Origin: a virus | Reading direction: 5' to 3' (one strand) | Length of the DNA stretch: 33,841 nt | Virus record (IMG/VR): IMGVR_UViG_3300035660_000049 | Coordinates: 1 to 33,841 of that record | In this document: one piece after another, positions 2,463 to 27,892 of the stretch | How the letters are laid out: each line of letters starts with the position of its first letter | Position numbering within the stretch: the stretch's first letter is position 1 | Position numbers and translations under genes: made by a program | Notes under the pieces: model-generated | The model's input: only the letters and a program-made list of their open reading frames with translations | The model's database searches: none | What the model was told of the DNA's origin: nothing

Positions 2463-3292
2463 AGACTCACGTACCTCGGATAATAATTGAATTCCACCAC
2501 CGTGTACTCGGTGGAGTTGGCCACCGTAACCAGGATGGAATTATCCCCTCCCGCCAGCGGCCACAAGTCGGCGCTGGCCTTGGGGACATTCGCCCAGGCG
2601 TTGGCGCCGTTCAGGCGCACGGTTTTGTAGAGCGGCCGGCTGTCGATCTCCAACGTGTCGGCGGCGTCCAGTGTACCAGAATAGATAAATGTCCGTCCGC
2701 TGGTCTGGTTGATCAGTGAGATGATGGCGCCCGGTCCGGTGATGGTCCACACCGGCCAGGCCTCCACACCCGGGTTGTTGATCGTTTTTTGCTCGAGCAC
2801 CGATGACGGCAGCAGGTACAGCGGCGGCACCGGGAAGAAAAGCGTGGGATTTTCGCTCCCGCCGCTGACAAAATCCACTATAACCGCCGTGGGATCATAC
2901 CAGTACGGATCTAGCGCATCGAAGGACAGGACCGCCTCGGCCGCCTGGAGCCAGTTCTTCTCGCCCAGGCCGGCCCGGTAGAAGCAGCGATATAGCTCCC
3001 GGACCACGTCATCGTTGCGTGTCACCTTCAGCGTCCCCTCGCCGGCAGTCAGCACGTCCAAGATCAAGCGCACATTGGCCAGCAACTCCGCCTCGGTGGT
3101 CGCCTTGAACAAAAACGGCAGATCGAGCGGACGCTTCTCCTGGAGATAGGTTGACATCATTAACTGTCCGCCGATGCGTTTCGTCTCCAGTGTGGTCTCA
3201 GGCGCGAGGTCGCCGCGCCGGCCGGCTTTCAGCCTGCCATAGTCCGTCAGCACAACCGAACGGGGGCCAACAACGCGGAACTCAATTTCCAT
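2459..3292 (-). CDS. Distal tail (Dit-like) phage tail family protein (277 aa)
   Basis: This is probably the distal tail protein that joins the tube to the tip. It lies directly downstream of the tape measure gene, the standard Dit position. The N-terminal part (MEIEFRVVGPRSVVLTDYGR, then a stretch ending in LDALDPYWYDP-type residues) resembles the sipho-tail N domain, and the C-terminal half is a beta-sandwich-like region (PGVEAWPVWTITGPGAIISL). The frame stays open 25 codons further upstream, but the start at 3292 is preferred. It follows a GGAGAT ribosome-binding site and overlaps the tape-measure stop by 11 bases, and the upstream extension has tape-measure codon shadows. Confidence 0.75.
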   Translation of the reverse strand: MEIEFRVVGPRSVVLTDYGRLKAGRRGDLAPETTLETKRIGGQLMMSTYLQEKRPLDLPFLFKATTEAELLANVRLILDVLTAGEGTLKVTRNDDVVRELYRCFYRAGLGEKNWLQAAEAVLSFDALDPYWYDPTAVIVDFVSGGSENPTLFFPVPPLYLLPSSVLEQKTINNPGVEAWPVWTITGPGAIISLINQTSGRTFIYSGTLDAADTLEIDSRPLYKTVRLNGANAWANVPKASADLWPLAGGDNSILVTVANSTEYTVVEFNYYPRYVSL

Positions 3293-5402
3293 AGAGCATC
3301 TCCTGCCGGCGCTGGATGCGCTCCAGCTCCTCGGCATCGATGCCGGCGTTGACAATATTATAGACACGGCTGCTGTTGTTGCTGTTTACCATGCCTGCCC
3401 CGGCTGCGGCAAGGGCGCCCGTGCGACTATTCATCGCGACTTCGAAACTCCCGGCCAGGGCGCGAATTACCGCCGCCATTTGATCCTGGAGGTTGGGCAT
3501 TTCGAACCCGAGGGGGATAGCACCCAGCGCCGCCAGCGCGTCTTGTTTGGTCAGCACATACCCGCCGCCGCCAACGTAAACCTCAGGCCGGGTGGCCAGA
3601 CTCTCGTTCCAGAGATAGGAATTTGGGAAGATCGAGCCGCCCGATGCACGTGGTTCCGCTTTTGGTCTATTAGGACCAGGACCAGCGTGATATTCTTCCC
3701 AATAGTCGGTCTTTACGTCTACATGTATGTCTGTCGGTATACTAGCAAGATTTTCGGCAATCTTCAACGCGTCCAAGGCGGCTTTATAGGCTTCATCTGA
3801 CAATAATCCCATCTCCAAACGATAGTTCAGCACTTTCGCTATGTCCTCCTCGGTGAACGTCCCATCCATTGTCAATTGTGCTTGCAGGAATCCGGCTATC
3901 ATTTCATTCGTGGCGTCCAGGGAGGCCTGCTGCGCCTCACCAAGTTTTGCCTTCAGGCCATCTACTTTTTCCTGCGCGTCTACCACCTTCTGGCTGGTCT
4001 CGGGCCATTTCGCCGCCTGGAGCGCGTGTAAGTTGTCTTCCGCTGTTTGTAGATTTTCCTCGGCAGTCTGGACGTTTTTAATGTTAGTCTCGTACTGCTG
4101 GGCAAATCCGATGATAAATCCAAACTCGGCCTGCTCCTGCTGGAGGGCAGTAGTAGATTCGAGTATCGAGCCGGTGAAGATGTCAGTGTAGCTAATGGCG
4201 CTCTGGGTTTCGGTATTCACCTCATAAAGAGAGGTGGAGCGCTCTCTATCAGCGTTGGCGGCTTTCTCCTCGGCCTCGGCAGCTGCCTTCTGGGCGGCGG
4301 TAACATCTTCAAGAAGGTCGGCATAACTCTTGTATTGGAAAAAGTTTTCCATGATATTGACCCCCAATTTTTTCGCCTCCATCCGCAGTGTTGCTGTATT
4401 TGCTGCATTAATTAACATCGGCGCAGCCATTTCCCCAATTACCAACTTAAGTCCATACCACGAATCGTGTAAATCATCCTGCGCTTTTTCAAGTTCGCGC
4501 GCCTTGCGCAGGGACGCGTCTGTAAGGATGAGTTCCCCACTAATTGCAGCAGACTGGTCACGAATTGCCGTGCTTCCCTGCTGTAATAACTCAATATAAG
4601 ATTTCCATGATTTCCCAAGGCTGTCTGAAGCAATTTTGTTTTTGTCAACCTGATTGGTAGCAGCATTATATTTATCGGCAATATCGGCAAGGGTTTCAAT
4701 GCTTAATAGTTTTCCCTGCGTTAATAGTTCTTTTTGCGTCAAAAGCAGATCTGCTACACTGATTTTGTAATCATCTGTGAGCTGTATCAGGCGGCTGTTT
4801 TCTTCTGCGGTTTTGTTATTTAATTGCGATAATTCCCGTACCTGCCCGGCGTAGGTAACGAACGTGCCAATTGTCTCGTCAACCACTCCCTTGAGTATCT
4901 GGTATCCCTGTTTCACAACCCCGATCGCCGAGTTGATCTCAGTCCAGGATCCCTTCAACATCTGTCCCAGGGACGCCTGCTTTTCCCCCATCTCGTCTGC
5001 TGATTTACCGGCGGCTATATTTCCGGTCTTCAGGTCCGCCAGGGCTGTATCGGTTTTATCCAGCTCGACCGTCATCTTGCCGAGCCGCTCAGCTTCTTTG
5101 TTGAATGCGATCTCGGCGATCTGCGCTTGTTTGCTGCCCTCCCCATTTTCCGCGGCAAGGCGGGCGTATTCCGCCCGACAGGCCTCTACCTTCGATTTCT
5201 GGATCTCGATCTGGCTGGTCAGGCTCTTGATGCGCATCTCCAGGCCGGAGGCATCCGAGGCCCAATCCTGCAGCCCGGCCGCAGACGCGCGGAACCCTGA
5301 TTCCAGGACACGTAATTCGCGATTTGCTTCCGCTAATCCTGTTTTGAAGCTGGTAGTATCAATTCCCAAAACACCCGCGATTTTTGCAACTTGATCAACC
5401 AT
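3282..5402 (-). CDS. Tape measure protein (706 aa)
   Basis: This protein sets tail length and is threaded through the tail tube. It is the longest gene of the tail module and lies between the tail chaperone and the distal tail gene, as in most siphoviruses. The N-terminal 110 residues (IAGVLGIDTTSFKTGLAEAN, then long Lys/Glu/Ala-rich heptads) are typical coiled coil. A second coiled coil spans about residues 365-500, and the C-terminus is Gly/Ala-rich (AAAGAGMVNSNNSS). At about 0.15 nm per residue the tail would be near 106 nm; that is an estimate from the family rule. The start overlaps the GIY-YIG stop by eight bases, so translation is probably coupled. Confidence 0.88.
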   Translation of the reverse strand: MVDQVAKIAGVLGIDTTSFKTGLAEANRELRVLESGFRASAAGLQDWASDASGLEMRIKSLTSQIEIQKSKVEACRAEYARLAAENGEGSKQAQIAEIAFNKEAERLGKMTVELDKTDTALADLKTGNIAAGKSADEMGEKQASLGQMLKGSWTEINSAIGVVKQGYQILKGVVDETIGTFVTYAGQVRELSQLNNKTAEENSRLIQLTDDYKISVADLLLTQKELLTQGKLLSIETLADIADKYNAATNQVDKNKIASDSLGKSWKSYIELLQQGSTAIRDQSAAISGELILTDASLRKARELEKAQDDLHDSWYGLKLVIGEMAAPMLINAANTATLRMEAKKLGVNIMENFFQYKSYADLLEDVTAAQKAAAEAEEKAANADRERSTSLYEVNTETQSAISYTDIFTGSILESTTALQQEQAEFGFIIGFAQQYETNIKNVQTAEENLQTAEDNLHALQAAKWPETSQKVVDAQEKVDGLKAKLGEAQQASLDATNEMIAGFLQAQLTMDGTFTEEDIAKVLNYRLEMGLLSDEAYKAALDALKIAENLASIPTDIHVDVKTDYWEEYHAGPGPNRPKAEPRASGGSIFPNSYLWNESLATRPEVYVGGGGYVLTKQDALAALGAIPLGFEMPNLQDQMAAVIRALAGSFEVAMNSRTGALAAAGAGMVNSNNSSRVYNIVNAGIDAEELERIQRRQEMLYGN

Positions 5403-6138
5403 TTTGCATCTCGGCTTTCTTCAAAGACCACCAAGCCCTATGGGCCTGGCTCATTTTTGCGCGGCACTCCGGTGTTCGGCACGCCGCATCTTTAGCAGCC
5501 CGGTGTTCTGGGGAGAGCGGGATTCCTTTCTTCGCCTTCGACATTTTTGCGCGACTCTCCGGTGTTCGGCACGCCGCAATTACCGCAGCTCGGCGTTCTG
5601 GGGAGAGCGGGATTCTTTTCTTCGCCTTCGACATTTTTGCGCGATGTTCCGGTGTTCGGCACGCCGCAGCTAGCGCAGCCCGATGTTCTGGGGAGAGCGG
5701 CACACCTCTCTTGGCAGCAGATATGGCAGTACTGGTTCTTGCTCGATATTCTGGATCCGCCCAACTTCTCTTGCTGGCCTGGCTTATCTTCGTACGCGTA
5801 ATGGTTGAGGGTTTCCTGCCAAATCCTGACGATGGAAATGCAGGACCAAGATTTATCGATCTCGAGATAGGAGTTTTATCGATCCAATGTTGTTCGAGTA
5901 GCCGCAACTCCTTTTCCGGGATATCTTGCCACTCTTCCAAAATACGAATTTCGAATTCTCCATATTTATTCCAAAGATTTTGAAGAAGGTAATTTGAATG
6001 CCTCCCATGCCGAAGGTCATTTAGATGATCGTTCAGCCTTTTTTGGAATTTACATATTGTGGAGCCAATATAAAAATTGTCCCCGTTGTCAGTATGAAAA
6101 ACCAACGCGTAGACGCTACCACAATTTTGCATATTCAT
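5395..6138 (-). CDS. GIY-YIG homing endonuclease with NUMOD3 repeats (247 aa)
   Basis: This is a free-standing mobile nuclease inserted between the tail chaperone and tape measure genes. Residues 8-95 hold the GIY-YIG domain: VYALVF and FYIGST mark the two halves of the signature, with the downstream Arg in QKRLNDH and the Glu in LLEQHWID. After about residue 115 come NUMOD3-type DNA-binding units of 30 residues (PLSPEHRAALAAACRTPEHR and variants) repeated three times, plus a degenerate unit before them. Family knowledge gives sequence-specific cutting and self-spread. It overlaps the tape-measure start, so the insertion kept the operon intact. It shares no sequence with the second GIY-YIG gene beyond the catalytic domain. 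Confidence 0.88.
   Translation of the reverse strand: MNMQNCGSVYALVFHTDNGDNFYIGSTICKFQKRLNDHLNDLRHGRHSNYLLQNLWNKYGEFEIRILEEWQDIPEKELRLLEQHWIDKTPISRSINLGPAFPSSGFGRKPSTITRTKISQASKRSWADPEYRARTSTAISAAKRGVPLSPEHRAALAAACRTPEHRAKMSKAKKRIPLSPERRAAVIAACRTPESRAKMSKAKKGIPLSPEHRAAKDAACRTPECRAKMSQAHRAWWSLKKAEMQNG
5413..5694 (-). repeat. Tandem 90-bp repeats encoding NUMOD3 units
   Basis: On the + strand the segment CCGGTGTTCGGCACGCCGC recurs at 5469, 5559 and 5649, a 90-bp period. The units are nearly identical at nucleotide level, so the array probably expanded recently or is kept homogeneous by recombination. Each unit encodes one 30-residue NUMOD3 motif. Confidence 0.85.
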
Positions 6139-17243: not shown

Positions 17244-17600
17244 GTGTTTGATTTGAATGCCCTGTTCGATCTCAATTCCCTGCCGGTCGCGCCGGAGTTC
17301 ATCGAAGTGCTGGCCGAGAATGCCACCGAGACCGCCGCGGCTGCTCTCGAAGCCCTCCACGCTCCCGAACATCTCGTCCTGCTGGTCAGGAACATCCACG
17401 AGCTGGGTTATTATCTAGAGCAGTGTTACCGCTCCCCGAATCCCTTGCTGCGCGAGCGCAGCAGCCGCTTCGACATCGAAGCGGTTGTCATCGAAAGCCT
17501 CAATGCCATCGCCCAGTCCGGCGGTATTTTCCGTGGGCCCACCGGCGACACTTTCCCACGCGAAGCGCCCACGCCTGTGCAGTTCGAGAAGGGATCATGA
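17244..17600 (+). CDS. Unrecognised helical protein (118 aa), GTG start
   Basis: GTG at 17244 follows GAGGAGG by six bases, which decides the start. The protein begins VFDLNALFDLNSLPVAPEFI (start residue Met in vivo) and is mostly helical and Ala/Glu-rich (EVLAENATETAAAALEALHA). A Leu-rich segment (LVLLVRNIHELGYYLEQC) lies in the middle, and a Pro-rich end (REAPTPVQFEKGS) follows. No family is recognised. Its stop overlaps the start of the endonuclease VII-like gene (ATGA), so the two are coupled. It lies in the rightward island after the Arc-like gene. A regulatory or anti-repressor role is possible but only inferred. Confidence 0.7.
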   Translation: MFDLNALFDLNSLPVAPEFIEVLAENATETAAAALEALHAPEHLVLLVRNIHELGYYLEQCYRSPNPLLRERSSRFDIEAVVIESLNAIAQSGGIFRGPTGDTFPREAPTPVQFEKGS

Positions 17601-18229
17601 GAGAGATCCCGCTCACCCAGAGGAAGATATGTAATCACTGTGGGGAAGATAAAAAAACTGATGAGTTTTGTAAGTGCTCTCAGTCTCTTGATGGATTACA
17701 ACCAAGATGCCGCGATTGCAATAGACTTTATTCTAAAGCTACGAAAGAACAACGCAAGGAATACAACCGATTATATCGTTTGCGCCATCCAGAAGTAGGA
17801 CGCAAAGCCCAAGCTAAATACAGAAAGGCCCATCGAGAGGAAGTCCTGAAAAGAAACCGGGAATATATGCGTCAAATCCGCAAAGAATGCCCCGACAAAT
17901 TTCACAAAAGAGATCGAAAATTCTTCCTAGCCAAAAGAGGTCTAACCGAAGATGAATACAATCGCCTATTTGAACAACAAGGTGGCGTGTGTGCGATTTG
18001 CGGGCATACCGGAACGGGGAAGCATGGTTATCTCTGCGTAGACCACGACCACAAAACAGGTAAAGTTCGTGGTTTACTTTGCAACAGTTGTAATATGGGA
18101 TTGGGTCATTTTGGCGATAACGCATCTATCTTGAAAAAGATGATCGATTATCTCGCTTTTGCCGAAGCCGTTGCCGCTCGTGATGAGGCAGCCAAAAAAT
18201 ATCACGGTGAATTCGCCAATCTCAAATAG
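17597..18229 (+). CDS. Endonuclease VII-like HNH nuclease with AP2-type C-terminal end (210 aa)
   Basis: Residues 10-45 hold a Cys-rich zinc ribbon (CNHCGEDKKTDEFCKC, then RCRDCN). A basic helical linker follows (KEYNRLYRLRHPEVGRKAQA). Residues 120-185 form an endonuclease VII/HNH-type core: VCAICGHTGTGKHGYLCVDH, DHKTGKVRGLLCNSCNMGLG and FGDNASILKKMIDYL. The last residues, ARDEAAKKYHGEFANLK, match the C-terminal end of AP2-type HNH homing endonucleases (compare [18 protein letters not shown] in the 160-aa gene at 27410). It is probably a free-standing mobile nuclease. The start at 17597 is in the ATGA overlap. Codon use is more A/T-rich than the neighbours. Confidence 0.82.
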   Translation: MREIPLTQRKICNHCGEDKKTDEFCKCSQSLDGLQPRCRDCNRLYSKATKEQRKEYNRLYRLRHPEVGRKAQAKYRKAHREEVLKRNREYMRQIRKECPDKFHKRDRKFFLAKRGLTEDEYNRLFEQQGGVCAICGHTGTGKHGYLCVDHDHKTGKVRGLLCNSCNMGLGHFGDNASILKKMIDYLAFAEAVAARDEAAKKYHGEFANLK

Positions 18230-18474: not shown

Positions 18475-18513
18475 CTCCTGAAATTTCAAGAGGCAAATAA
18501 ATCATGGCAAGTG

Positions 18514-18585
18514 CGCCCCGGGCGAGATTCGAACTCACATCTATGGCTTAGCGGGCTATTATTCTATCCGTTGAACTACCGGGGC
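18514..18585 (-). tRNA. Degenerate tRNA, anticodon position GCT (identity uncertain)
   Basis: Acceptor GCCCCGG pairs perfectly with CCGGGGC. D arm GTTC..GAAT, T stem GTGAG/CTCGC and loop TTCGAAT are sound. The anticodon loop reads CCGCTAA, so anticodon GCT (Ser) but with C at position 33 instead of the near-universal T. The anticodon stem has one A-C mismatch, and the four-base variable loop lacks the long arm expected of tRNA-Ser. Discriminator is G; CCA is not encoded. It could be a phage tRNA under decay, a tRNA mimic, or a decoy. It lies downstream of the terminase gene on the same strand. Confidence 0.7.
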
Positions 18586-18852: not shown

Positions 18853-21768
18853 CTACATCCCCCAGTCCTGGTCTAAGATACCGCTCATATCGCTTTCCTT
18901 CAGCGATTGCATTCGCACCATCGCCGTAATGATTGCGGCGATCGGATCGATGCGCCGCGTGTCGCCCGCCTTCTTCTTCGAAAGCATGATATTCTCTTTT
19001 GTATCCACGATCTCCCTGGCATTGCCTACTGCCCAGCGTAAGAGCGGCGAATTGTCGTGCACCAGTTTGCCGCTGGCCACCAGCTCGCGGAACGTCTTGG
19101 TCGGCTCGCTCAAGATCTTCATCCATTGAGCGATCTCGACCGTGATGTAGCCCAGCTCACTCAGCTCGATGGCGAAATGTGTGGCGGCGTATGGGTCATA
19201 AGCAATTTCGTGGGTTTTCCATAAATATTCCTTCTCGCAGCGCTGGATGTATTCCTGCACCCTCCTATAGTCGGTAACGTCACCCTCGGTGATGGTTAGC
19301 CAGCCATCCCGCGCCCAGTCCCGGTAGGGAATTTTATCCAGCTTCTCATGACGGTCCACTCCCCCCTCGGGGATGAACCCATGCGCGCAGACCGCCACCC
19401 GCTCGTCCTCCAGCAGGAAAACGCTCCCTGCCGCGGTCAGATCGATCTTCTTCGACAGGTCCAGGCCGACCAGTGTCAACCGGCCGCTGGTCAGTTCCAG
19501 GAATTCCTCGCGCGGGACCCCGCACTGGTCCCATTTCGACAGGCTCTCACCCAGGGCAGGCGTCAGGTACTCGCCCATGTACGTGCTCTCGTTCCCGTGC
19601 ACCCAGATGTTCAGGTTCTTGACCCGGAACGTGCGGATCTTGGCCGAGTCTTTCGAATTGAATGCTTCGTCGTGCATGTCACGCAATTCCTTTCTCATAA
19701 CCCGGTTGCTCATCATCAGTGGATTGGCCTTCGTCCAATTTTTCGGGTCATGCTCATCGTCGCCCTCGTCCAGCTCGCGGATCATCACGAAATAGCGCTC
19801 GTTCTTCACCTGGCCCTTCAAGATCATTTTTGCATATTCGTATTCGTGATGGCAGGGGCTTTCCACGTCCATGCCCGCGGTGGTGATGATCAGCATCAGC
19901 GGCTGGGCGCGCTGGCCCTTGGCCGAGGAGATCTGGTCGTATATTTCCGACGTGGGGTGGGCGTGGTATTCGTCCACAAATGCGCAGGATGGGGAAAACG
20001 CGTCCTTGTTCTTTACCTCCCCGCTGAACGCCACCATCTCGCCGCCGCGCGACTTGTGGTTGATCTCGAATTTCCCGATCTTGAGCCGGGCGCGGATATC
20101 CCGGCTCTGCTCCGCCATTTCCTTCGACGAGTTGAACAGCACCCGCGCCTGCCTCTTGTCCACGGCCGTGCAGTAAACCTCCGGGCTGGCCTCCATGTCG
20201 CCGACCATCATGTACAGACCGATCCCCGCCCCGCGCGTGGTATTGTGCGTAGGTATCATGGTTTCGCCTGCTAGATACAGTTTCGATTGGGAATCAACCT
20301 GGATACAACGAACAGGCTCGCTCGGTATGGGGTTCACGGCCACGATCTGCCTCATACTTGCTCTTGTACTTGTTGCCGGAGCATTCTTTTGCCGATTCCG
20401 TTTCCTTTCAAGGCGGAAAACCTCCTGTCCTTGATATGCCCAAAATTGGATTTTGAAGCATGTGCCACAGTCCTTTCCATACAAAAGCGCACGACCCACT
20501 GATTGGGTTGGCTTATATCCCAGCGAACAAAGCAATTCGATGACACCTTCCGCTAGCAGCGCATTGGACGTCGAGAAACTGCATTGTCCCGCCGGACTAA
20601 TCGTCCCATCTGTATCATTGAGACCCTGCAGCAATGTCTGTCTCTGTTCAATGGATGCTCGCAAATAGGGCATCGGAATATGTTTGTTGTTGCGCAGATT
20701 TAATGCGCTTAGCTTATGACCAAATGAATTCGTCGGGTCATTCCTGGCACCTTCTTGCGTACTTAAAGAGAACAACCCACAGTTGCCGGAACGCGATTTA
20801 GTCTCATGAATAGGTACACCAGTCTTGGCAATTTCATCCACAATTTGTATATCACTATAGCCAATAGTAATGCGCGCTCCATTCGAATGCCCATCCCCAA
20901 GCCAACACCCCAGGACATACGGGTTTATTGGAAGATCCTTAGCAGGTAGTGTCAAAGGCTCGGCCACCCGGATCCGGTGATTCCATTCAACACGGCCATG
21001 CGTTTTGTTGAATGGAGTATCAACACTCAGCGTTCGTGCAATCTCTTCGGTTGTGTGTATAAAATCAGTCGAAGTGAATCTTTTGCTGTGTGGACGATGT
21101 GTCTTTTTCATGTCGGTGTGCCATAGATGTCCTGCATCAGCCACAATCTTGGCGCCATCGGAGAACGTCAGCTCGTAGCAGGTATGGCCGACCATTACAT
21201 CCGACGTGTAAATTACCCTGGTTATCTGCCCTCTCTCGTCAAATAGTTTATCTCCCACTTTGACGTCAGCCATACGTACCCAACCATCAGGCGTTGGTAA
21301 TGGAGTAGAAAGGGCCAAGGCCTTGGCGTTCTTCCTACCTTCAGTAATGAACGCCTTGCGGAACCGCCGCACGCCCACCGAGCGGCCGTCGGCGCGCTCG
21401 ATCTTTTCCCTCCGCGAGACCCATCCGAAGATACACGACACCTCGAAACGATGCGAGTTGATCAGTCTGATGGGTTTCCCCGCCAGGCGGCCCTTGACGT
21501 GGACCAGGCTGGCAAACCATTCCACCGCGACCAGATCCGCCTGCGCGCCATCAAACACCCATTCGAACCGGGGATCCTTCTTCGGGACGGGCTGCCCGGT
21601 CGCCTTTTTGACGCGCGTCGCCAGGTCCTTCGGGAGCTGCCCCGCCCGCGCCAGGTCCCGCAGATGGCGCAGGCAGGCCAGGCGCTCCATGCTGCCCACA
21701 TTGCGCTTGCGCTCCACGGCCTCGATGGCATAGTTGGTCGCCGGATGGATCTTGATCGGGGTGGACAT
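18853..21768 (-). CDS. terL: Terminase large subunit interrupted by an intein (971 aa precursor; 611 aa after splicing)
   Basis: The ATPase-nuclease motor packages DNA through the portal. The N-terminal extein (1-149) ends in the Walker A motif GRKNAK, which continues as TTRGAG at residue 510, so the intein splits the P-loop. Walker B is in AFVDEYHAHPTSEIYDQI, and nuclease acidic residues are in LVGLDLSKKIDLTAAG and IAYDPYAATHF. The rejoined 611 aa is a normal TerL length. It follows the small terminase gene with a one-base overlap. Splicing must restore the P-loop for activity, which may couple packaging to splicing; that regulation is inferred. Confidence 0.93.
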   Translation of the reverse strand: MSTPIKIHPATNYAIEAVERKRNVGSMERLACLRHLRDLARAGQLPKDLATRVKKATGQPVPKKDPRFEWVFDGAQADLVAVEWFASLVHVKGRLAGKPIRLINSHRFEVSCIFGWVSRREKIERADGRSVGVRRFRKAFITEGRKNAKALALSTPLPTPDGWVRMADVKVGDKLFDERGQITRVIYTSDVMVGHTCYELTFSDGAKIVADAGHLWHTDMKKTHRPHSKRFTSTDFIHTTEEIARTLSVDTPFNKTHGRVEWNHRIRVAEPLTLPAKDLPINPYVLGCWLGDGHSNGARITIGYSDIQIVDEIAKTGVPIHETKSRSGNCGLFSLSTQEGARNDPTNSFGHKLSALNLRNNKHIPMPYLRASIEQRQTLLQGLNDTDGTISPAGQCSFSTSNALLAEGVIELLCSLGYKPTQSVGRALLYGKDCGTCFKIQFWAYQGQEVFRLERKRNRQKNAPATSTRASMRQIVAVNPIPSEPVRCIQVDSQSKLYLAGETMIPTHNTTRGAGIGLYMMVGDMEASPEVYCTAVDKRQARVLFNSSKEMAEQSRDIRARLKIGKFEINHKSRGGEMVAFSGEVKNKDAFSPSCAFVDEYHAHPTSEIYDQISSAKGQRAQPLMLIITTAGMDVESPCHHEYEYAKMILKGQVKNERYFVMIRELDEGDDEHDPKNWTKANPLMMSNRVMRKELRDMHDEAFNSKDSAKIRTFRVKNLNIWVHGNESTYMGEYLTPALGESLSKWDQCGVPREEFLELTSGRLTLVGLDLSKKIDLTAAGSVFLLEDERVAVCAHGFIPEGGVDRHEKLDKIPYRDWARDGWLTITEGDVTDYRRVQEYIQRCEKEYLWKTHEIAYDPYAATHFAIELSELGYITVEIAQWMKILSEPTKTFRELVASGKLVHDNSPLLRWAVGNAREIVDTKENIMLSKKKAGDTRRIDPIAAIITAMVRMQSLKESDMSGILDQDWGM
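20242..21321 (-). mobile_element. Class 3 intein with LAGLIDADG endonuclease (360 aa) inside terL
   Basis: The insert runs from Ala150 (ALALSTPLPTPDGW, block A with Ala instead of Cys) to Asn509 (MIPTHN), followed by +1 Thr. Block B has HLW (His214, Trp216), block F has VRCIQV (Cys488) and block G has Thr507-His508-Asn509. That is the Trp-Cys-Thr triad of class 3 inteins, which splice through the block-F Cys and not residue 1. LAGLIDADG-type motifs LGCWLGDG and LLQGLNDTDG mark a homing endonuclease. The DNA is visibly A/T-richer than the flanking terminase, which fits recent transfer. Confidence 0.9.
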
Positions 21769-22238
21769 CAGTCGAACTTCTTCGCGAACTTGTCGTGGAT
21801 CTCGTCTGCACGCTTCTTCACCAGCCGCGCCCGCGCCGAGGGATTGAATCCCAGCTTCTCGGCATACGAGGCGATGATCCGTGCCCAGGTTTGCAATTCC
21901 TTGATATCATCCGCGCTTTTGGGGCTGCGTCCGGCCGCCAGGCGATATTGCACGTACGCGTCGCAGTAGACGGCCAGCATCTCGGTGTCCAGCACGTCCA
22001 GTAGCTCAGCAGTCGCATTCAGCCCCGCGACCTCCTTCAATTTCCGCAGCCAAACCCTGCGCGCCTCGGCGCTCAACCAATCAGGCGGCGCCAGCTTAAT
22101 AGGTTTCTGCCGTTTCAGCTTTTCCGCGGCCTTCTGGCGCGCGGCCACCTCGGCCGCGGTCCAATGCTTGCCCCCGCCCTTTTGGCCGATCTCCATCGTC
22201 TCAGCAGAAACCACAGCGGAGCTATATTTCTTTGGCAT
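21768..22238 (-). CDS. terS: P27-family terminase small subunit (156 aa)
   Basis: It recognises the packaging site and stimulates the large subunit. It matches the P27 small terminase type: a basic N-terminus (MPKKYSSAV, then EKLKRQKPIKLAPPDWLSAE), the WLSAEARRVWLRKLKEVAG segment, and LLDVLDTEMLAVYCDAYVQY, typical of this family. Its place directly before the large terminase gene, with ATG and TGA overlapping, is standard. An HNH nuclease gene precedes it, as in many cos-type phages. Confidence 0.88.
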   Translation of the reverse strand: MPKKYSSAVVSAETMEIGQKGGGKHWTAAEVAARQKAAEKLKRQKPIKLAPPDWLSAEARRVWLRKLKEVAGLNATAELLDVLDTEMLAVYCDAYVQYRLAAGRSPKSADDIKELQTWARIIASYAEKLGFNPSARARLVKKRADEIHDKFAKKFD

Positions 22239-22297: not shown

Positions 22298-22666
22298 CTA
22301 TTCTAAACTTTTTGATGGCCTATCCTTCGAGCCGTCGAGATAATGTTTTTTGTTATCGCAGCGCCGACACAATCCCTCGAGGTTGCTCCAGCCATCTGTG
22401 CCGCCCTGGCTGCGTGGGTGGATATGATCCACCACGACGGCCGGGACACGAGGACCATGCAGCCCGAATGGATTGACACACCACGGATGCGCCTTGAGAA
22501 ATGGATCGCGGACTCTTGTCTTCCAATCCCAACCATAGCCACGAGCAGACGCGGAAGGACGATCGTCCACTGCCCGCGGACGTGGATGCCGTGGGCAGTC
22601 TTGACCAGGTTGCACCAGGATGGTGCAACCTGGCACACGGCACGGATGCGGCGAGCGTTTAGGCAT
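22298..22666 (-). CDS. HNH endonuclease next to terminase genes (122 aa)
   Basis: The HNH core VVDHIHPRSQGGTDGWSNLE followed by GLCRRCDNKK has the first His-Asp/His and the Asn-His-like metal residues, with Cys pairs (CRVPGC, LCRRC) for zinc. In cos-type phages such as HK97 (gp74), an HNH protein works with the terminase in cutting packaging sites; that role is suggested here by position just before the small terminase. The start at 22666 overlaps the holin-like gene stop, while the longer open frame upstream is a shadow. Classification as packaging nuclease and not mobile HNH is likely but not certain. Confidence 0.78.
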   Translation of the reverse strand: MPKRSPHPCRVPGCTILVQPGQDCPRHPRPRAVDDRPSASARGYGWDWKTRVRDPFLKAHPWCVNPFGLHGPRVPAVVVDHIHPRSQGGTDGWSNLEGLCRRCDNKKHYLDGSKDRPSKSLE

Positions 22667-23126
22667 CTTTGCCGCTGAACGATGCACCAAGCAGCGGCAC
22701 CCTGGCGGCTTTGAGAGCATCATGCGTGGATTGAGATCCGGTAATTTGCACGATGAACCCAAGCACGAACAGGATGACCATCGCAATCTGCCCGGCAAAT
22801 CCATCCAGGATACTCATCGTCAGGTCAGGGCGGAAGACGCCGAGAAGAACCAGGGTAATAAACGCAACCAGGTTCATTCCGGCTGCCCATTTGTTGGCAG
22901 TGCCATCTTTCACCAGGCCAGTCAGCTTGAGCAAATTTACCAGCGCGGCGACCAGCTTCGAGACACCGACCAGCGATGCAAAGCCGAGCATGATGACGAC
23001 CACCACGTTCAGCACGTCAGGTGGGAGCGGCGCAGATGCGGGCGAAACCGCATGGACTGCCGCCGGCAGGAATGCCGCCAGGGCAACTACCAGCAAAACG
23101 GTCACGATCAAAGTAATGCGTTTCAT
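22659..23126 (-). CDS. Membrane protein, 3-4 TM helices, holin-like (155 aa)
   Basis: It starts with a signal/anchor segment (MKRITLIVTVLLVVALAAFL). Further hydrophobic stretches follow (LNVVVVIMLGFASLVGVSKL, WAAGMNLVAFITLVLLGV, GQIAMVILFVLGFIVQI). The topology of several short helices with small polar ends fits a holin or phage accessory membrane protein. No clear family name can be given. AAAAGGAGATCGAAC precedes the ATG. It is the first gene after RNA element copy 2. No endolysin is next to it; the endolysin gene lies about 3.4 kb away in the early region. Confidence 0.65.
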   Translation of the reverse strand: MKRITLIVTVLLVVALAAFLPAAVHAVSPASAPLPPDVLNVVVVIMLGFASLVGVSKLVAALVNLLKLTGLVKDGTANKWAAGMNLVAFITLVLLGVFRPDLTMSILDGFAGQIAMVILFVLGFIVQITGSQSTHDALKAARVPLLGASFSGKDA

Positions 23127-25165: not shown

Positions 25166-25585
25166 TTATGTGGGAGTATCCTGGCCACCATAAACCCAAG
25201 CGTGCCAAGTAGGTCTTATGAATATTTCTTCATCCTTATTATCAAAATATTCCTTCTTGATTTTTCCGTGAGTTGTATACCAGAATTCAAAAACATTTTT
25301 TATGATGTTGTATTCCGGCTTCAATCTTTCAATCCAATATTGCTCCTTATCGTTCAGTTCATAATCTTTGCAGAATTCAACTACTTCAAGATTGAAATTC
25401 CTCTCGCCGTATTTATTCCAAGCATTTTGTAAATATGGATTATTGTGCTTGTTTTTTCTCAAAAGGTCGCGATGCTTTTTCCATCTTCTCCAAATGTTAT
25501 ATGATTGACCGACATATTTATGGAGGCCCATCTTGTTGTTGATTACATAAATTCCAGGGCGATCCAATTCTTTTTGGGTAAGCAT
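25166..25585 (-). CDS. GIY-YIG endonuclease, compact (139 aa)
   Basis: The catalytic half is clear: PGIYVINNKMGLHKYVGQSY holds GIY and YVG(Q), followed by IWRRWKKHRDLL with the catalytic Arg, and KEQYWIERLKPEYNI with the catalytic Glu. There is no NUMOD array; the C-terminus is a short basic tail (KIKKEYFDNKDEE). The coding DNA is much more A/T-rich than neighbouring genes, which fits recent arrival. It sits between two regulator genes and is likely a free-standing homing endonuclease. Confidence 0.85.
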   Translation of the reverse strand: MLTQKELDRPGIYVINNKMGLHKYVGQSYNIWRRWKKHRDLLRKNKHNNPYLQNAWNKYGERNFNLEVVEFCKDYELNDKEQYWIERLKPEYNIIKNVFEFWYTTHGKIKKEYFDNKDEEIFIRPTWHAWVYGGQDTPT

Positions 25586-26498: not shown

Positions 26499-27413
26499 TC
26501 AATCCACGAACACTGCCAGCCTTTGCCCGGCGTAAAACAGAGCAATCCAATTGCCATCCGCGAGCCTGGCCCATAGATCGTTGCCAACATATTTCGTTTC
26601 CAACACCTGAACCTTCGTGCCATAGACCAAAACCCGTACAATTGGATACGACGTACTGGCTCCAGCGCGCACTCGCAGCCAGGGGAAGGCAATAATTTTC
26701 ACGGTCTTGATTTCGTTGACAGGGGGAGGAGTAATCGGCGTGCCGCCGTAACCCAGCCAGGCCTTCAGATCCGCTACCGTGCCGGGGAAAATGTTGATAT
26801 CCATCGGCCGGCTCGATCCAGGCAGGATGATCCTATCGCCGCTGCATTGCCACATCCGCACCGCTCCCGGCGCTTTATTTGCGTTGACTGGCGGCCATGT
26901 GAGTTTCCCGATCTTCATCCGCAGCTCATCCCAACTGATCGTGATACGGCTGGCGGGATACATCGAATAAGGGTATTGAGACCACCAGATGTCCGCTTTC
27001 GGCCACGGCGAAACTTCCGCCAGGAACCACTCTCCGGTATAAATGTGAGCCCGCCATATCGCTTGGATCCGCCACATGAAATCGTCGAGCTGCGCTCCAT
27101 ACATGGCTGGCGAATAACCGCTCTTGCGCACCTCCACATCGATCGCAACCGCCGGGCAACCTTTCGGCATGTGCGCCAAAAGCCAGTAGTAGTTCTCCTT
27201 GCCGGTGACCCAAGGATTGTAGACAAAGTATGGCCAGCGTACGAATGCCTCTGCCTCTGCCCACTGCCTGGCAAAACCTTCGTCCATGTGGTGCCCGCCA
27301 TATATGCTGTTCAACCGGATCACCAGTCCGCTCAGGCCCCCGGCGAACATCACCGCCTCGTCAACCTCCAGTTGGCCAGCCCATGTATCCAATACCAATA
27401 TATAATCTTTCAT
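26499..27413 (-). CDS. GH25 lysozyme-type endolysin with SH3-like C-terminal domain (304 aa)
   Basis: Residues 1-210 fit glycoside hydrolase family 25 muramidases: [37 protein letters not shown] and the AIDVEV catalytic-type strand. Residues 235-304 form a bacterial SH3-type wall-binding domain ([20 protein letters not shown], then [20 protein letters not shown]). It hydrolyses peptidoglycan for host lysis. There is no signal peptide, so export would need a holin. Unusually, the gene lies in the early region and not with late lysis genes. The ribosome-binding site GGAGAA lies in the preceding HNH gene. Confidence 0.85.
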
Positions 27414-27892
27414 TGGGATTCTCCAAAATTAAGCCGGGCAAATTCCCCAAATAGTTTGAACGCTGCATCATCATAAGCACGCGCGGCTTCCTCTAGAGAA
27501 TTATGAAAACCGAGACGTGTTCTTATCCTATTACACGAAATATATGCTTCCCACTTTCTGATCTTCTTATTCCAACTAACACCCTTGAACCCTGACGTGT
27601 TATCTTTGCGGATGGGACAATTTTGCTGTTGCTGCGAATTCGTACAAATTCGAAGATTGGATTTTTGGTTATCTAACTTATTGAGATTGATGTGATCAGT
27701 CTCCAACCCATCCGGAGGTTTCAGGATTTCGCAATGCATATAAATCTTTATCTTTTTCCCGCCTTCCCGCTCACTCCTATTGGCATATTTCTGACCATCG
27801 TAGCACCACTTATGCTTTGATATCCGTTCATGGTCGTCGTCATCTACGAGTACGAGCGCAATTTTGCCTTGCGTGAGTTTAATCTCTTTCAT
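27410..27892 (-). CDS. HNH-AP2 homing endonuclease (160 aa)
   Basis: Residues 30-95 hold an HNH-3 core ([20 protein letters not shown], then [20 protein letters not shown]). Residues 100-155 are an AP2-type DNA-binding domain ([20 protein letters not shown], ending [20 protein letters not shown]). This architecture is typical of free-standing homing endonucleases. It lies between the ParB-like and endolysin genes with four-base overlaps on both sides, so insertion left the operon intact. Its DNA is A/T-richer than the neighbours. Its C-terminal end resembles that of the endonuclease VII-like gene at 17597. Confidence 0.88.

Follow-up and report, generated by a model that had tools for sequence, protein, structure and literature searches.

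The large terminase gene of an uncultured virus, IMGVR_UViG_3300035660_000049, almost certainly carries a mobile class 3 intein between the Walker A lysine and threonine of the packaging ATPase, and the precursor would splice to a TerL of 611 residues. The complete stretch of DNA analysed, referred to here as the window, comprises positions 1 to 33,841 of that IMG/VR record (33,841 nucleotides). The gene encodes a precursor of 971 amino acids that belongs to PHROG 9, the large terminases (8e-143), and which contains the Pfam domains TerL_nuclease (1e-49) and TerL_ATPase (3e-17), the latter matched from residue 514. The insert of 360 amino acids starts with ALALSTPLPTPDGW and ends with MIPTHN, is flanked by GRKNAK and TTRGAG, and has an open frame without a stop; its subtraction from the precursor gives the length of the spliced protein. 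The coordinates, residue numbers and product length put forward in a first-pass annotation of this DNA were all exact, and the features are collected in Table 1.

Table 1. Positions of the terL precursor, its intein and associated genes, numbered from the first nucleotide of the window.
Feature	Position	Strand	Basis
terL precursor, HK97-type large terminase, 971 aa	18853..21768	minus	Pfam, PHROG, reading frame
Class 3 intein, 360 aa, Ala1 to Asn360 (precursor residues 150-509)	20242..21321	minus	
N-extein, residues 1-149, ending GRKNAK (first half of Walker A)	21322..21768	minus	
C-extein, residues 510-971 plus stop, starting TTRGAG (second half of Walker A)	18853..20241	minus	
Trp216 (intein W67), block B position 12	21121..21123	minus	
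Cys488 (intein C339), block F position 4, predicted first nucleophile	20305..20307	minus	
Thr507 (intein T358), block G position 5	20248..20250	minus	
Penultimate His and terminal Asn of the intein	20242..20247	minus	
Thr510, the +1 residue and Walker A Thr of the mature enzyme	20239..20241	minus	
Intein Cys48, aligned with the disulfide-forming Cys of M. smegmatis DnaBi1	21178..21180	minus	6bs8 alignment
First LAGLIDADG motif, intein 135-146	20884..20919	minus	
Second LAGLIDADG motif, intein 230-241, with Asn235	20599..20634	minus	Pfam LAGLIDADG_3, 8.5e-5
Small terminase gene terS, overlapping the start of terL	21768..22238	minus	PHROG 83, 9e-20
Free-standing endonuclease genes	5395-6138, 25166-25585, 17423-18229, 27410-27892, 22298-22804		

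The insertion site and its empty homologues

The junction is set by homologues in which the site is empty. Viral contigs provided 40 loci encoding a relative of the C-extein, and in 37 of these the sequence is contiguous at residues 149/510 with no base between the two sides. Two others (L045 and L056) start past the junction and so have no N side, and a single locus, on the contig IMGVR_UViG_3300032046_000110, contains the intein as the same insert of 1080 bases (this locus appears as L018 among the terminases and as L001 among the inteins). In bacterial genomes, where the analysis took the 80 best of 181 confirmed relatives, 75 loci are exactly contiguous at 149/510, two have a small indel at the junction (-3 and +36 bases) and three have no match on the N side, whilst none of the 80 contains a relative of the intein. 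The boundary that had been proposed from the sequence is thus borne out by insert-free terminases of both kinds, as is, from the position of the insert, the separation of GRKNAK from TTRGAG.

The intein separates the Walker A lysine from the threonine within a motif of the form RKN[AGS]K/[TS]. Because these two P-loop residues lie 360 residues apart in the precursor, it is reasonable to suppose, as the annotation had done, that the ATPase would be inactive until splicing is complete.

Class 3 features of the intein

The class 3 inteins are defined by features that include a Trp-Cys-Thr (WCT) triplet, as described in passages of PMC3196547 and PMC6195587. The TerL intein begins with alanine, so that position 1 offers no serine, threonine or cysteine nucleophile, and its W67, C339 and T358 align with Trp67, Cys118 and Thr137 of DnaBi1. 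A phmmer search of the Protein Data Bank matched two solved class 3 inteins, DnaBi1 of M. smegmatis (6bs8, 3.4e-30) and DnaB1 of M. chimaera (6rix, 6riy; 6.1e-30), in an alignment that spans residues 1-70 and about 315 to the last residue and which places the W, C and T in register.

The same residues recur in a sample of 113 aligned inteins, which is biased towards the query in that it includes the best 80 of 590 relatives, together with 17 phage records picked by hand from the match listings. It was drawn from 115 loci with an intein match, of which L015 and L230 were dropped with the intein cut off and L018 as a duplicate of L001. The block F cysteine, block G threonine, block B histidine (H65), penultimate histidine (H359) and terminal asparagine (N360) are each present in 113 of 113 rows; the block B tryptophan, and with it the complete WCT triplet, is found in 111; and the +1 residue is threonine in 75 and serine in 38.

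An AlphaFold2 model of the intein, built with 46 sequences, has a mean pLDDT of 92.7 and a pTM of 0.92. Over its length the model best matches PI-SceI (E 4.8e-21, TM 0.71 by query length), and over the splicing part it matches 6bs8 and 6rix/6riy with TM scores of 0.81-0.84 by target length. The general Pfam intein profile PF14890, by contrast, gave no match at E<=0.001 in this record (as a control, 6 of 14 genomes matched) and the NCBIfam search returned weak sub-threshold matches only. Membership of class 3 is nonetheless as firm as sequence and predicted fold allow, and every sequence feature named in the earlier proposal, from the Ala1 start and the triad of W216, C488 and T507 to the Thr at +1, survives.

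Proposed splicing and homing

The chemistry of splicing can be modelled on that of the named class 3 relatives. Following translation, the block F cysteine (C339) would attack the bond preceding Ala1 and the N-extein would then be transferred to the threonine at +1. Asn360 would cyclise and the exteins would be ligated, to give the 611-residue TerL with an unbroken P-loop, whereas an unspliced motor could not bind ATP properly. The anatomy of the intein also suggests homing, in which the LAGLIDADG endonuclease would cut an empty terL gene at the conserved P-loop codons and the intein would be copied in. The TerL intein is a clear, intact-looking and well-bounded case, and one of many of its kind.

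Cys48 and possible redox control

In DnaBi1 the two homologous cysteines form a disulfide bond, and splicing stops on oxidation (reported in a passage of PMC6195587). By extension, the TerL intein could act as a redox switch for packaging, with a disulfide between Cys48 and Cys339 halting splicing until conditions become reducing, although this is unlikely. The TerL intein has Cys48, as do 21 of 28 dereplicated inteins from sites of the RKNxK type, and the residue is a cysteine in 78 of 111 WCT inteins in the sample, biased as that is towards the query. Despite the term non-conserved that is applied to it in a passage of PMC6195587, these counts suggest that Cys48 is the rule in the class 3 inteins sampled, and the redox idea is therefore testable beyond mycobacteria. 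In the open literature, PMC6195587 was the only paper found to combine intein, Cys48 and class 3.

Against such a switch, the two cysteines lie 11-12 angstroms apart in the DnaBi1 crystal, and changes to C48 abolish the splicing of DnaBi1 (both from the same part of PMC6195587), so that Cys48 may instead be retained for folding. The TerL intein has eight cysteines in all, which are open to other reactions. Moreover, the cytoplasm, where TerL is made, is normally reducing.

Slightly more doubtful is the wider notion of the class 3 inteins of phage terminases as redox gates on packaging, with a reversible lock between Cys48 and the block F cysteine that is kept alongside Asp62 in many inteins of phages. 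Were this true, the packaging ATPase would be completed only in a suitable redox state. The two residues do occur together, as in 97 dereplicated inteins 60 have both, 21 have neither and 8 and 8 have one alone (Fisher p=8e-9). Shared ancestry may explain most of this coupling, because among 48 nearest-neighbour pairs both residues had changed in 3, in none of them in opposite directions, against 14 in which one had changed alone.

The LAGLIDADG domain and the possibility of decay

The fold of the model also matches I-DmoI in addition to PI-SceI, and both LAGLIDADG motifs are kept, as had been noted, with a reservation that concerns the second of them. The predicted endonuclease residues Asp143 and Asp238, which we take to be the catalytic aspartates of the LAGLIDADG family, are present, with aspartate at these positions in 109 and 111 of the 113 aligned inteins, respectively. 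Residue 235, which directly precedes the first aspartate of the second motif, is an asparagine here and is hydrophobic in all the other 112 rows (Met in 94, Leu in 12, Ile in 4 and Val in 2). Because Asn235 is unique among the 113 rows, the endonuclease, and with it homing, may be weakened.

Taken further, this substitution in the second LAGLIDADG helix, where the close relative L001 has leucine, might be the mark of a decaying intein, in which splicing has been lost or the endonuclease is dead, leaving the element fixed or the terminase lost. Arth_1007 is a documented example of a class 3 intein that is dead (a passage of PMC3196547). Decay is nevertheless very unlikely here, as the splicing residues are all intact and the frame is open, both terminase domains are retained by the exteins, and both parts of the intein are under purifying selection, the ratio of the computed dN to dS being about 0.16 for the splicing part and 0.31 for the endonuclease. 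Furthermore, the record has genes for a portal, a protease and a major head protein (PHROG), and a loss of splicing would leave its phage unable to package DNA.

Relatives of the intein and how common they are

The closest solved relatives, the DnaB inteins of M. smegmatis and M. chimaera (E of about 1e-30), share the class 3 residues, Cys48 and Asp62 with the TerL intein, and DnaBi1 also shares its location in a P-loop. They differ in that they reside in a host helicase rather than in a phage terminase, and DnaBi1 has no endonuclease whereas the TerL intein has a full LAGLIDADG domain.

It is highly improbable that the TerL intein belongs to class 1 or class 2, with its WCT residues coincidental and its splicing begun elsewhere. 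A threonine before the His-Asn pair does occur in the class 1 intein gp41-1 (a passage of PMC7664689), and some sampled inteins combine Cys1 with WCT. However, class 3 structures are matched at E=3e-30 against just 0.039 for gp41-1 (6qaz), while gp41-1 engineered to carry WCT (6riz) gives 0.0012, and the alanine at position 1 precludes the class 1 reaction there. Class 2 is described, in a passage of PMC3196547, as so far known from KlbA only, and block F here carries a cysteine rather than an aspartate.

Four of the 111 WCT rows (L177, L198, L225 and L227) have the full triplet yet a cysteine at position 1. Cys1 may have been gained within class 3, because L225 and L227 group with L182, which has Pro1 and a similar site. 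The class 3 inteins L227 and L182 may be housed by a portal protein; Pfam P22_portal matches two of the scanned C-exteins, which are probably theirs.

The claim that class 3 inteins are few does not hold, as a passage of PMC7891396 counts 1701 in the nr protein database, 82.5% of them with LAGLIDADG motifs, and the triplet is near universal in the present sample. A search of 50,697 phage records gave matches to the intein in 753 (E<=0.001), of which 538 cover at least 80% of its length. Nor is the site unusual. Mycobacteriophage terminases have seven intein insertion sites, one of which, TerL1-a, falls between the Walker A Lys and Thr, and five of their inteins splice while two cut the empty gene (passages of PMC5050341). 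The junction GRKNAK/TTRGAG lies at this point in a terminase that is of the HK97 type by its Pfam domains TerL_ATPase and TerL_nuclease, and a WCT intein of Mycobacterium phage Sassay occupies ARKNGK/T in a related terminase. The Sassay intein, which we would place at TerL1-a from the Sassay sequence rather than from PMC5050341, has the same A1, W, C, T, H and N as that of the window, but is only 36% identical to it, with C-exteins 25% identical and a mycobacterial host. Rarity of the site or of the class was therefore rejected, published and sampled cases being numerous, and neither the kind of intein nor its site is new. In a narrow search of open papers PMC5050341 alone combined intein, terminase, P-loop and class 3, and none combined inteins, the terminase large subunit and uncultured viruses.

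Terminases also occur among the proteins that house the sampled inteins. With L224 too short and 12 of the remaining 112 omitted (near-duplicates, and the five phage rows that diverge most), 100 C-exteins were scanned with Pfam, giving TerL_ATPase in 33, Terminase_6N in 21 and GpA_ATPase in 12. The environmental virus terminase inteins L155-L164 have the WCT triplet and lie mostly in KKNGK/S or similar P-loops, at 42-53% identity; by local identity L155, at 53%, ranks second only to L001. They belong to other terminase lineages, and a quick tree, made of relatives of the query only and with site labels from rough text patterns, does not join them to the intein of the window. Grouping with other inteins of the TerL site is unsupported by this tree, in which the window and L001 join L060, L177 and L210 with weak support (SH-aLRT 86).

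Recent movement of the intein

Among the contigs of the collection, IMGVR_UViG_3300032046_000110 was the only other one found with the intein in this terminase lineage. Its intein has the same site and length, and is 96.4% identical in DNA against 87.6% for the C-extein. The same in-frame arrangement on this second contig refutes the suggestion, of virtually no probability even for a window that is a single uncultured contig, that assembly fused an intein fragment to a terminase.

A total of 23 segments of the window were compared, for 11 of which a counterpart was present in the examined parts of the second contig. The synonymous divergence (dS) of the intein is 0.089, compared to 0.577 for the C-extein and 0.606 for the N-extein, and in the other eight comparable coding segments dS ranges from about 0.22 to 0.94 (0.222 to 0.935), with TerS the highest. 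The exteins and TerS are thus some 6-10 times more diverged at synonymous sites than the intein. Four-fold sites follow suit: the two contigs agree at 150 of 161 such sites within the intein, compared with 209 of 308 within TerS and the exteins (Fisher p=1e-10). The intein also has a lower GC3, of 0.47, than the exteins, at 0.80-0.85. Since the synonymous divergence of the intein is far below that of the exteins, the simplest reading is that the two phages have recently shared it, either by homing between them or by acquisition from a source common to both. This movement is also an indirect sign that the endonuclease cuts an empty allele. Less likely than recent movement is codon selection within the intein. 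What the window adds is a class 3 intein with secure boundaries, probably from a phage of the Chloroflexota. Dozens of homologues with an empty site and a single partner in recent exchange make it a good natural case for homing into a P-loop.

Host

The host is probably a member of the Chloroflexota, judging from the terminases of named genomes. Six of the first seven relatives listed are in Chloroflexi/Anaerolineae assemblies, all seven being 52-59% identical, and the one listed first, at 59%, is binned as Acidithiobacillus. The host group had looked unusual in the first-pass annotation; the probable one lies away from the published mycobacteriophage cases, but relatives of the intein are found in 8 of 301 Chloroflexota genomes. 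Those inspected are at K/S or K/T junctions in other proteins. The class 3-like inteins L238, L239 and L240, 40-45% identical, lie in genomes of Chloroflexota between LEGK and SSLGRLG, in a putative dCTP deaminase, to go by its motif.

Neighbouring genes

The window is rich in free-standing endonuclease genes, with two that are homing endonuclease-like, one that is endonuclease VII-like and two of the HNH type. One of the homing endonuclease-like genes (5395-6138) is situated within the tail genes, immediately upstream of that for the tape measure protein (3282-5402). A tRNA-Ser (GCT) gene at 18513-18585 follows shortly after terL and shares its strand, and a tRNA-Glu (CTC) gene at 151-225 lies near the start of the window.
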